DNA from: Brevibacillus laterosporus LMG 15441
GTDB lineage: Bacteria > Bacillota > Bacilli > Brevibacillales > Brevibacillaceae
Direction of reading: 5' to 3'
Assembly: GCF_000219535.2 (NCBI RefSeq)
Contig: NZ_CP007806.1
Coordinates: 3,816,501-3,880,500 of the forward strand
Length of the DNA stretch: 64,000 bases
This document shows positions 42,517 through 45,309 of the stretch, piece by piece. How positions within the stretch are numbered: position 1 is the first letter of the stretch; every line of letters begins with the position of its first letter. The notes below the pieces were generated by a model. That model did no database searches and was not told the origin of the DNA. It worked only from the letters and a program-made list of their open reading frames with translations. The position numbers and the translations under genes are program-made.

Positions 42517-43449
42517 TTATTTCTTCTCAGCAATACGCAATTTAGCCGATCTGGCACGTGGGTTATCCGCAAGCTCCTCTTCAGACGGTAGCAATGGCTT
42601 TCTGGTGATAATCTTAACAATCGGTTCATTACCGCATACACATTGCGGGAACCCAGGCGGGCATGTACAGCCTTGCGCTTTTTCTAAATAAGCATGCTTA
42701 CAAATCCGATCCTCTAAGGAATGGAAAGTAATAACACTCACTCTGCCACCCGGACGCAAAATGTCAATAGCATCTGAAACCGCCGTCTTAAACACATGTA
42801 ATTCATCGTTTACGGCAATGCGAATGGCTTGAAAGGTTCTCTTCGCCGGATGAGGTCCTGTACGCCGAGCTGGAGCTGGAATAGCTTCCTTAATAATCTC
42901 TACCAGCTGTCCTGTTGTTTCAATCGGCGCTTTTTCACGATGCAGGATGATTTGCCGGGCAATCTTCCGGGCAAACTTCTCTTCGCCATACTCAAAAATG
43001 ATTTTGGATAGCGCAGCTTCCTCCCACTCATTTACGATGTCATAAGCAGATAGGTCGGCTTGCTGATCCATGCGCATATCCAGCGGGGCGTCACCATTGT
43101 AGCTAAACCCACGTTCTTCTACATCTAACTGAGGAGAAGATACACCTAGATCAAACAAAACGCCATCTACGCCATCAAGACCTAAATCTTGCACAACATC
43201 CTTGAGATAGCGGAAGTTACTTTTCACCAAAGTCACTTTATCTTGATACGCCTGTAGTTTTTCCTTGGCGTTTGCAAGTGCTACATCATCTTGATCAATG
43301 GCAATTAATCTACCCTGATCACCTAGCTTTGAAGCAATTAAAGTACTGTGTCCTGCTCCACCTAAGGTGCAATCCACATATATTCCATCAGGACGAATAT
43401 GTAATCCTTCTACGGCTTCCTGTAATAGTACGGTTACATGGTGAAACAA
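42517..43449 (-). CDS. rsmH: 16S rRNA (cytosine-1402 N4) methyltransferase RsmH
   Basis: A 310-residue SAM-dependent methyltransferase that modifies C1402 of 16S r[18 protein letters not shown] opens the protein; the SAM loop is [10 protein letters not shown] near residue 30; [11 protein letters not shown] near 102 and ISFHSLEDR-type [10 protein letters not shown] near 240 are family motifs. The frame stays open for 48 codons upstream, but only the TTG at 43449 has a ribosome site (GGAG) at suitable distance and gives the standard length. Older name mraW. Confidence 0.94.
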
Positions 43450-43468
43450 AATAACGTCACTCCCGAGT

Positions 43469-43900
43469 CTACAAATTAAAATCAACGAGCTTTTCAGCAA
43501 TCTCGCCAAAAGATTGCTCTTGTTCCAAAGAATACGCATCCCATTCTGTCTTGCCCCAAATTTCCATGCGATTCTGCACGCCAATAATAACACATTCTTT
43601 CTGTAAACGGCCGTGTTCTCGCAAATGAGGTGGTATGTTTACCCTTCCCTGCTTGTCCCACTCACATTCAGTAGCACCAGAAAAGAAAAAACGGGTAAAC
43701 GCCCGAGCGTCAGCTTTGGTAAATGGCAGAGATTTAAGTTTTTCTGTTAACGCCTTCCACTCTTCCATCGGGTAGACGAATAAACAACGATCAAGGCCGC
43801 GGGTTACAACAAAGGACGAGCCCAGCATATCACGGAATTTAACCGGGATTGTCAGACGGTTCTTGTCATCGATGTTATGCTGATACTCACCCATGAACAT
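43469..43900 (-). CDS. mraZ: Transcriptional regulator MraZ
   Basis: A 143-residue protein with two AbrB-like MraZ half-domains; each carries the DxxxR pattern ([15 protein letters not shown] near residue 10 and [16 protein letters not shown] near 84). MraZ forms a ring-shaped oligomer that binds tandem TGGGN-type repeats upstream of its own gene and represses the cluster. The ATG at 43900 gives the standard [13 protein letters not shown] start; 15 more in-frame codons upstream would cover the operator and are rejected. It is the first gene of the division and cell-wall cluster. Confidence 0.95.
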
Positions 43901-43929
43901 TCCAACTTCCCCACTTTCCTTCCGAGAGA

Positions 43930-43954
43930 TACCACTCTCCCCCACTTTTCCCCA
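43930..43954 (-). promoter_or_regulatory. mraZ: Probable MraZ operator: TGGGN-type repeats with 10-bp period
   Basis: On the minus strand TGGGG (43950-43954), TGGGG (43940-43944) and TGGTA (43930-43934) follow one another at exactly 10-bp steps with 5-bp spacers; a fourth TGGGG (43909-43913) overlaps the mraZ ribosome site. Tandem TGGGN repeats with 5-nt spacers are the known MraZ target in Escherichia coli. The repeats lie between the predicted transcription start and the start codon, as expected for autorepression. Confidence 0.75.
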
Positions 43955-43970
43955 CTTCTTGCCTCTCCTT

Positions 43971-44000
43971 ATTATAGAAAAAAAACCTGCCGTTTGTCAG
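43971..44000 (-). promoter_or_regulatory. mraZ promoter overlapping the ahcY terminator
   Basis: Minus strand: -35 CTGACA (43995-44000), 18-bp spacer, perfect -10 TATAAT (43971-43976). The -35 is in the loop and arm of the ahcY terminator hairpin. Transcription would start near 43964, just before the MraZ repeats. Confidence 0.65.
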
Positions 44001-44008
44001 CAGGTTTT
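43980..44008 (-). terminator. Intrinsic terminator after ahcY
   Basis: Arms AAACCTGC (43983-43990) and GCAGGTTT (44000-44007) with T-tracts on both sides, so it can act in either direction. It lies about 42 bp after the ahcY stop and separates it from the division cluster. Confidence 0.85.
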
Positions 44009-44049
44009 TTTCTTCATTTTTTGATGCCATATCCCAGCGAATTTCTTAC

Positions 44050-45309
44050 CTATTCGACCCAGCTTTCTAAGTATTCTTTTTGCTCTGGCGTCAATTTGTC
44101 GATATTCTTTCCAAGCGCTTCCAATTTATAGCGAGCCACTGTTTCATCTAGCTCATATGGTACGTTTAATACCTTTTTACCGATTGCCTCATAGTTCTTG
44201 CTAACATACTCAAGTCCTACTGCCTGCAAAGCAAAGGTCATATCCATAATTTCAGCAGGATGTCCATCACCTGCAGCTAGGTTCACAAGACGACCTTCCG
44301 CTAACAGATAGATTTTACGACCATCTTGCAGGACAAATTCTTCGATATCTTTACGAACAACACGTTTGCTTGTCGATATATCGTTCAGCTCTACTTTATT
44401 TACTTCGACATCAAAGTGGCCAGCATTAGATAAAATAGCTCCATCCTTCATGCTTTCAAAGTGAGCTTTGCGGATAATGTCGCGATTACCCGTTACTGTA
44501 ACGAAGTAATCACCAAGCTTAGCTGCCTCATCCATGGACATTACTTCAAAGCCGTCCATGTATGCTTCTACAGCTTTAATTGCGTCAATTTCTGTCACGA
44601 TAACCTTTGCACCCAAACCTTTTGCGCGCATAGCTACGCCCTTACCGCACCAGCCATAGCCCGCAACCACTACAGTTTTACCAGCAACAACTAGGTTTGT
44701 TGTACGGTTGATTCCGTCAAATACGGATTGACCTGTACCATAACGATTGTCAAACAGATACTTGCAATAGGCATCGTTAACAGCTACCATCGGGAATTCA
44801 AGCTTCTCTTCTTTTTCAAGAGCACGCAAGCGTAGAATACCAGTAGTGGTTTCTTCCGCTCCACCTTTTACATTCTCTAATAGATCACGGCGCTCTCCAT
44901 GTAAAAGTGTTACAAGGTCCCCACCGTCGTCAATTAGAAAATCAGGACGAGTTTCCAGCGTTTTAATGAGAAGTTCTTTATACTCTTCTTCGGATGGATT
45001 GTATTTAGCAAATACGCGAATACCATCTTCCACCAAAGCGGCACATACATCATCTTGTGTTGACAAAGGATTAGATCCGGTAATCGTAACTTCAGCACCA
45101 CCTGCTTGAATCACTTTTGCCAGATAAGCTGTTTTTGCTTCCAAATGAAGGGAGATTGCTACTTTTTTACCAGCGAATGGTTTTTCCTGTTCGAAGCGTT
45201 CTCTAATTCGGTTTAACACCGGCATATGTTCCTTTACCCAATCAATCTTTAAATGGCCGTTAGGTGCTAGGGCGATGTCTTTTACGATGCTTTCTTGAAC
45301 CATTGTCAT
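44050..45309 (-). CDS. ahcY: S-adenosylhomocysteine hydrolase
   Basis: A 419-residue NAD-dependent enzyme that splits S-adenosylhomocysteine into adenosine and homocysteine. Visible motifs: HLEAKTAYL near residue 54, DDGGDLV near 126, VNDAYCKYLFDNRYGTGQS near 181 (substrate Lys/Asp region), and the NAD loop GYGWCGKGVA near 217. It is of the shorter type, lacking the plant-like insertion, and its C-terminus is shortened relative to eukaryotic forms. AGGAGG precedes the first ATG. Many Bacilli use the Pfs/LuxS route instead, so this is a variant of the methyl cycle. No S-box was seen upstream of it. Confidence 0.93.
   Translation of the reverse strand: MTMVQESIVKDIALAPNGHLKIDWVKEHMPVLNRIRERFEQEKPFAGKKVAISLHLEAKTAYLAKVIQAGGAEVTITGSNPLSTQDDVCAALVEDGIRVFAKYNPSEEEYKELLIKTLETRPDFLIDDGGDLVTLLHGERRDLLENVKGGAEETTTGILRLRALEKEEKLEFPMVAVNDAYCKYLFDNRYGTGQSVFDGINRTTNLVVAGKTVVVAGYGWCGKGVAMRAKGLGAKVIVTEIDAIKAVEAYMDGFEVMSMDEAAKLGDYFVTVTGNRDIIRKAHFESMKDGAILSNAGHFDVEVNKVELNDISTSKRVVRKDIEEFVLQDGRKIYLLAEGRLVNLAAGDGHPAEIMDMTFALQAVGLEYVSKNYEAIGKKVLNVPYELDETVARYKLEALGKNIDKLTPEQKEYLESWVE

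Follow-up and report, generated by a model that had tools for sequence, protein, structure and literature searches.

A probable MraZ operator of AGTGG boxes behind a terminator-nested promoter in Brevibacillus laterosporus and its conservation across Bacilli

The window analyzed here is a stretch of 64,000 nucleotides (64 kb) of Brevibacillus laterosporus LMG 15441 (contig NZ_CP007806.1). On its minus strand, the path from ahcY to mraZ presents, in this order, a hairpin with a T tract, a promoter, three AGTGG boxes and a further AGTGG (table 1). In a profile search, the mraZ product scores well above the curated cut-off of the MraZ family, and its predicted model (pLDDT 87.7) matches the solved MraZ structures 9qlg, 1n0e, 9r4j, and 9sz7 (TM 0.85); the start codon is an ATG at 43900. 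The next gene of the operon, rsmH, is given by the coordinates of its open frame, but its true start probably lies inside that frame, as the TIGR00006 match begins at frame residue 50. The TGG cores of the three boxes are at 43954, 43944, and 43934, that is, at 10-bp steps, and another core is at 43913. The initial annotation had listed TGGGG, TGGGG, and TGGTA at 43950, 43940, and 43930; these figures are the low ends of the three repeat units, which occupy 43954–43950, 43944–43940, and 43934–43930, and the 10-bp spacing stands. So does the fourth TGGGG that it placed over the ribosome site (43913–43909), which shares bases with the probable ribosome-binding site of mraZ.

Table 1. Features of the predicted mraZ control region and flanking genes (window coordinates)
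Feature	Coordinates	Strand	Evidence or remark
rsmH (mraW), next operon gene	42517..43593	-	TIGR00006, 400.8 bits; open frame coordinates
mraZ, transcriptional repressor of division/cell wall cluster	43469..43900	-	NCBIfam TIGR00242, 178.2 bits, cut-off 98.35; predicted fold
Further box (AGTGG)	43911..43915	-	41 bp past box 1; overlaps likely ribosome-binding site
MraZ box 3 (AGTGG)	43932..43936	-	Conservation, 113 relatives
MraZ box 2 (AGTGG)	43942..43946	-	Conservation, 113 relatives
MraZ box 1 (AGTGG)	43952..43956	-	GTGG nearly invariant, 113 relatives
Positions of AGGA-N17-GAAT (SigH type) of many other Bacilli	43964..43988	-	AGGT and GAGA here
-10 element TATAAT, sigma-A type	43971..43976	-	TATAAT in 33/34 family loci
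Intrinsic terminator hairpin (predicted), 3' of ahcY	43978..44012	-	Fold -18.9 kcal/mol, z -6.7
-35 element CTGACA	43995..44000	-	Within terminator hairpin
ahcY, adenosylhomocysteinase, upstream gene	44050..45309	-	NCBIfam, 691 bits

We assembled 178 regions upstream of mraZ: 80 named loci, mainly of Brevibacillus and Paenibacillus, 34 loci of the window's family, and 64 of the class. A genome search at the level of the order yielded the 39 genomes of the family search and no others. Because the collections overlap, a non-redundant set was also used (less than 80% identity, n=114); the mraZ loci of relatives are, at any rate, not independent samples. TGG-core direct repeats at 10-bp steps upstream of mraZ, the arrangement looked for in an MraZ operator, are present in the window, and 176 of the 178 loci across Bacilli have three TGG ahead of mraZ with steps of exactly 10 bp. 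This corresponds to 176 of the 177 scored loci and to 113 of the 114 non-redundant ones, for shuffle means of 0.5 and 0.3, respectively. No triple was found at steps of 8, 9, or 12 among the 177 loci, and one at a step of 11. The two exceptions to the 10-bp triple, L180 and L163, have two exact boxes each; L163, which lies outside the 177 scored loci, reads AGG in the third place. In the 113 relatives, the TGG of boxes 1, 2, and 3 is preceded by a G in 112, 113, and 113 cases, and AAA is strong ahead of boxes 2 and 3 and weaker ahead of box 1. These flanking bases define the consensus box unit AAAGTGGNGN. Loss of the repeats in relatives that keep mraZ, which had been named beforehand as the observation that would speak against the MraZ reading, is thus not what we found. 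Longer arrays were seen in L072, L177, and L167, where extra boxes at about +30 and +41 make five boxes nearly in register.

The repeats are also rare in sequence terms. TGGG-N6-TGGG-N6-TGG occurs once in the window for 0.05 expected, and AGTGG-N5-AGTGG-N5-AGTGG exactly once in the 5.15-Mb genome, at the predicted mraZ operator. The looser TGG-N7-TGG-N7-TGG is common, with 35 occurrences in the whole genome, indicating that the AG preceding TGG matters. Although this abundance of loose triples could suggest that the TGG repeats near mraZ arose by chance, such an explanation is hardly credible and is already refuted by the conservation described above. Allowing up to two mismatches in the AGTGG triple adds four places in the genome, one of which overlaps the mraZ array; the three others are no more than the number obtained with the backward control pattern (3), and we rejected a wider MraZ regulon in this genome. 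As to the surroundings of these mismatch-tolerant places, L209 falls within a long open frame and L211 opposite one that resembles an ABC transporter; L210, near position 1500, is a box-like AGTGG pair adjoining a stretch of N.

The fate of the boxes in genomes devoid of mraZ bears on the same question. No mraZ match was found in 52 of 299 class genomes, and the region before rsmH was examined in 20 of them: three boxes are present in one (G169) and two in its relative G073, the other 18 having neither. When G002, a congener of the window's species, is included, three boxes are kept in 1 of 21 mraZ-less genomes, versus nearly all loci with mraZ. This pattern, in which the boxes are conserved with mraZ and lost without it, lends support to the initial annotation, which had identified the repeats as being of the MraZ type. 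G169 and G073 belong to one genus, and the boxes left before rsmH in these genomes (L127 and L126, respectively) apparently represent stages of operator decay; the three boxes without an mraZ match in G169 possibly reflect a recent loss of the gene. In two further mraZ-less genomes, G087 and G127, the AGGA-N17-GAAT promoter of the mraZ-bearing relative G049 (see below) is kept and the boxes are gone. In G002, the loss (L114, contig C20, near 165890–166100) has reduced the interval from ahcY to rsmH to some 200 bases, in which a short remnant persists. The terminator, the -35, TATAAT, and boxes 1 and 2 are kept there, and box 3 reads CGG, a pattern expected of an operator without its protein, with the promoter still serving rsmH and later genes.

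Whether the array extends to the ribosome site depends on how the further box is read. Counted from box 1, a TGG occurs at +41 in 56 of the 113 relatives, at +40 in four, and at +42 in two. It might be a ribosome-binding sequence only, the array then comprising three boxes, as it precedes the start codon by 9–16 bases in 50 of the 56 loci (12–14 in 36), which is where a Shine-Dalgarno sequence belongs. However, the position that is sharp when counted from box 1 spreads when counted from the start codon, with at most 16 of 113 relatives having a TGG at any given place from 3 to 20; moreover, the T within AGTGGGG spoils GGAGG. We therefore consider the ribosome-binding explanation somewhat unlikely, and the +41 box seems to be in register with the array, four turns from box 1, even though it overlaps the ribosome site.

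Another reading of the G-rich stretch is that it folds into a G-quadruplex controlling mraZ, in which case the G runs would matter and not the MraZ boxes. In Staphylococcus aureus, an intramolecular quadruplex with reporter effects is reported downstream of the mraZ promoter, and such motifs are stated to be conserved upstream of mraZ in other bacteria (PMC11796246); the terms "TGGG", "direct repeat", "repressor", and "MraZ binding" do not appear in the main text of that article. In agreement with this reading, the window has three G runs of at least three at this place, and a loose two-G motif is present in 89 of the 113 relatives. On the other hand, four runs of at least three G with short loops are not found in this part of the window, which has three such runs, and the G3+ motif with loops of 1–7 occurs in only 11 of the 113 relatives (14 if loops of up to 12 are allowed). 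Box 1 reads TGGT in 80 of 113, and the G runs vary, whereas GTGG at 10-bp steps is constant. On the basis of these 113 relatives, we rejected the quadruplex as a conserved feature; a quadruplex may form in one species, but quadruplex control as the explanation of this stretch appears very improbable.

Upstream of the boxes, CTGACA and TATAAT (44000 to 43971) match the sigma-A consensus TTGACA/TATAAT at 11 of 12 positions with a spacer of 18, within the usual range of 16–18. The overlapping hairpin is G+C-rich and is followed by a T tract, as in intrinsic terminators. The -35 does lie inside the ahcY terminator hairpin, as previously proposed: its six bases comprise three at the top of the 5' arm and three in the loop, the spacer consists of the 3' arm and the T tract, and a single base separates the stem from TATAAT. 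A simple terminator scan listed no terminator at the mraZ promoter; pairing with an A tract probably caused the T tract to be counted as stem. This nested arrangement is common to the window's family, where TATAAT closely follows the T tract in 33 of 34 loci and hairpin and TATAAT are both present in 32, the -35 being weak in several: at least four of its six bases match in 26 of the 33 TATAAT loci and only three in the other 7.

Beyond the family, a free hairpin search over the 176 three-box loci located the final G/C of the 3' arm 30–38 bases before box 1 in 95, found a hairpin elsewhere in 24, and found none in 57 (52, 20, and 41, respectively, in the non-redundant 113). A search limited to 25–50 bases before box 1 detected hairpins in 106 of 176 and 62 of 113 loci; in 55 of these 62, the 3' arm begins 34–39 bases ahead of box 1. 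We then considered the upstream genes, called by tblastn match within the locus in any orientation, some loci being short. By the limited search, hairpins accompany ahcY in 37 of 70 named, 33 of 33 family, and 3 of 7 class loci; they are present in 4 of 8 class loci with bshC but no ahcY detected, and, where neither gene was detected, in 7 of 10 named, 3 of 9 class, and 0 of 1 family loci. As the hairpin precedes the operator whether ahcY, bshC, or neither is detected upstream, it is a part of the mraZ promoter no less than of ahcY, and it keeps its spacing from the operator even though the upstream genes differ. A test for compensatory changes is weak here, since the search imposes the inner pairs and the outer ones are rich in A-T (AT 54, GC 4, and TA 4 at the first outer pair past AGGA; 65 of 76 paired, 58 slid by one). 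In G003 (L084), the 5' arm of the terminator has been replaced while the 3' arm, the T tract, TATAAT, and the boxes are kept, indicating that the hairpin is not indispensable. Directly upstream of mraZ, this locus carries frames that, by eye, resemble an IS3-type transposase pair.

Promoters recognized by SigH have the form RnAGGAwWW-N11/12-RnnGAATww. At a fixed place before the boxes, AGGA-N17/18-GAAT is present in 61 of the 113 non-redundant regions (spacing 17 in 55 and 18 in 6) and absent in its strict form from 52; other spacings from 5 to 40 occur at most twice each, and the shuffle means are 0.45 and 0.15. Outside the Brevibacillus group (L002–L012, set apart by hand), the strict form is found in 55 of 69 named loci and the relaxed AGG-N18/19-GAA in all 69 (shuffle mean 14.1, maximum 21). 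Among genomes whose spore sigH exceeds a cut-off of 294.8 bits, 28 of 56 have the strict mraZ motif, versus 0 of 9 below it (Fisher 0.008, a test that ignores relatedness); with scores of 246.8 and 286.5 bits, two of these nine genomes may encode a divergent SigH. The strict motif appears at least once in 19 of 35 families with sigH; of the 56 sigH genomes, only 7 match the full SigH consensus with its weaker positions. As a control, we examined the region upstream of spoIIAA, which is listed in the SigH regulon in PMC3416734: AGGA-N18-GAA is present in 25 of 30 loci (shuffle mean 1.1), and strict GAAT at 17 or 18 in only 8.

The window itself departs from this form. No SigH promoter was found at its mraZ, AGGT and GAGA occupying the AGGA and GAAT positions, and the full SigH consensus does not occur within the 64 kb; a looser form occurs 9 times for 6.0 expected, which is near chance. 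At the GAAT positions, 45 rows from the window's family (some species being represented twice, and 2 rows having no recognizable arm) include GAAT in 2 and AAAT in 12, the others reading otherwise. L003 and L091 have AGGA-N17-GAAT together with TATCAT. Nearly all window-family loci lack the SigH form; there, the same bases apparently changed from a SigH promoter into one of the sigma-A type.

It could be argued that AGGA-N17-GAAT is a by-product of terminator arms and of a sigma-A -10, without any recognition by SigH. Indeed, in 39 of the 61 regions (e.g., L020 and L178), AGGA is part of the 3' arm of a hairpin, although some of these hairpins are weak; some of the GAAT are part of TAGAAT, which is near TATAAT; and the other 28 of the 56 genomes with sigH over the cut-off do not have the strict motif. 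But in 22 of the 61 (e.g., L014, which has no terminator arm), AGGA retains this spacing and the search rule detects no hairpin (long-loop hairpins exist in two of the 22), which indicates that the element outlives the hairpin. The exactness of the spacing, the spoIIAA control, and the absence of the motif from genomes below the sigH cut-off point in the same direction, so that we regard the by-product explanation as unlikely. An ECF sigma factor for the GAAT motif was considered and set aside, the spacing of 17/18 fitting the SigH form and the spoIIAA control. In the literature searched, which omits most subscription papers, we found no report of SigH control of mraZ among the papers listed, no confirmation of the SigH consensus in those consulted for it, and no hit for a narrow query on promoters that overlap a terminator; PMC12421865 names ftsZ as a member of the SigH regulon of B. 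subtilis. In many related spore-formers, the mraZ promoter looks like one used when growth stops. With chances that we put slightly above even, a SigH-type promoter drives the whole division operon in much of Bacilli and takes its -35 from the 3' arm of the upstream terminator. The same 25 bp or so would then end one transcript and start the next as growth slows or sporulation begins, with the MraZ array at the start site, and the Brevibacillus family would have rewritten these bases to sigma-A while keeping terminator and operator. If this is true, terminator and promoter form one evolving element, and the septum genes are tied to sporulation entry at the head of the division cluster.

For the window itself, we propose, with a probability of roughly 0.87, that the stretch is an autoregulatory operator of the dcw operon, located behind a terminator-nested sigma-A promoter, at which an MraZ ring on the AGTGG boxes damps the operon. 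This proposal is based on the sequence, its conservation, the spacing of the boxes, their co-loss with mraZ, and the membership of the encoded protein in the MraZ family. The repeats are very probably a switch by which MraZ acts on its own gene cluster and, judged from sequence, the operator is a well-supported member of the known MraZ operator kind. The ring would set neighboring subunits on boxes one helical turn apart, on the same face of the helix. From a predicted start at about 43964, the boxes would span approximately +9 to +33, and the further box, next to the ribosome site, would lie near +50. In the simplest mechanism, MraZ held on successive boxes would block early transcription, at open-complex formation or promoter escape, and would thereby damp mraZ, rsmH, ftsL, and the penicillin-binding-protein genes that follow. 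Initiation by sigma-A would use the -35 in the head of the ahcY terminator, with the 3' arm and T tract serving as spacer. A polymerase leaving ahcY would stop just before the -10 and would have to clear the same bases before a new start. It should be noted that we infer MraZ binding, repression, the start site 43964, and termination at the hairpin.

Less expected than the operator is the SigH-type form that the terminator-nested promoter takes across Bacilli. A scan for sigma-A promoters would miss a SigH-type promoter half hidden in a terminator, and the data suggest that the sporulation-entry factor SigH takes part in controlling the division genes of spore-formers. For the MraZ operator, the analysis provides a precise geometry for an entire bacterial class, which can be compared with the recent MraZ–promoter structures, and another reading becomes available for a G-rich stretch previously called a quadruplex. 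Finally, losses of mraZ in which the promoter is retained provide natural tests.

In E. coli, the MraZ boxes upstream of dcw are reportedly TGGGN repeats. The predicted operator resembles that system in having TGG-centered direct repeats one turn apart, between the mraZ promoter and the start codon; MraZ binding is known in E. coli and predicted here. It differs in its unit, in the further box at +41 by the ribosome site, and in the terminator-nested promoter. In Mollicutes, the MraZ sites are given as AAAGTG[T/G] direct repeats (PMC8475190, where the term "MraZ boxes" is used). Core and array logic are the same as here, and, by their titles, PDB entries 9r4j and 9sz7 are cryo-EM structures of Mycoplasma genitalium MraZ in complex with its promoter and with a 4-box promoter, respectively; unlike the Mollicutes motif, the Bacilli consensus unites that motif and the one reported for E. 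coli in one unit. The S. aureus mraZ promoter, as presented in PMC11796246, has a stem-loop, a promoter, and a G-rich stretch in the same order as in the window; this stretch is read there as a quadruplex, but the conservation across Bacilli fits MraZ boxes better. Lastly, the mraZ regions of many relatives resemble SigH promoters such as that of spoIIA in their AGGA-N17/18-GAA(T) form. This form is absent from the window and, in contrast to SigH promoters, its -35 in other Bacilli often lies in a terminator arm.
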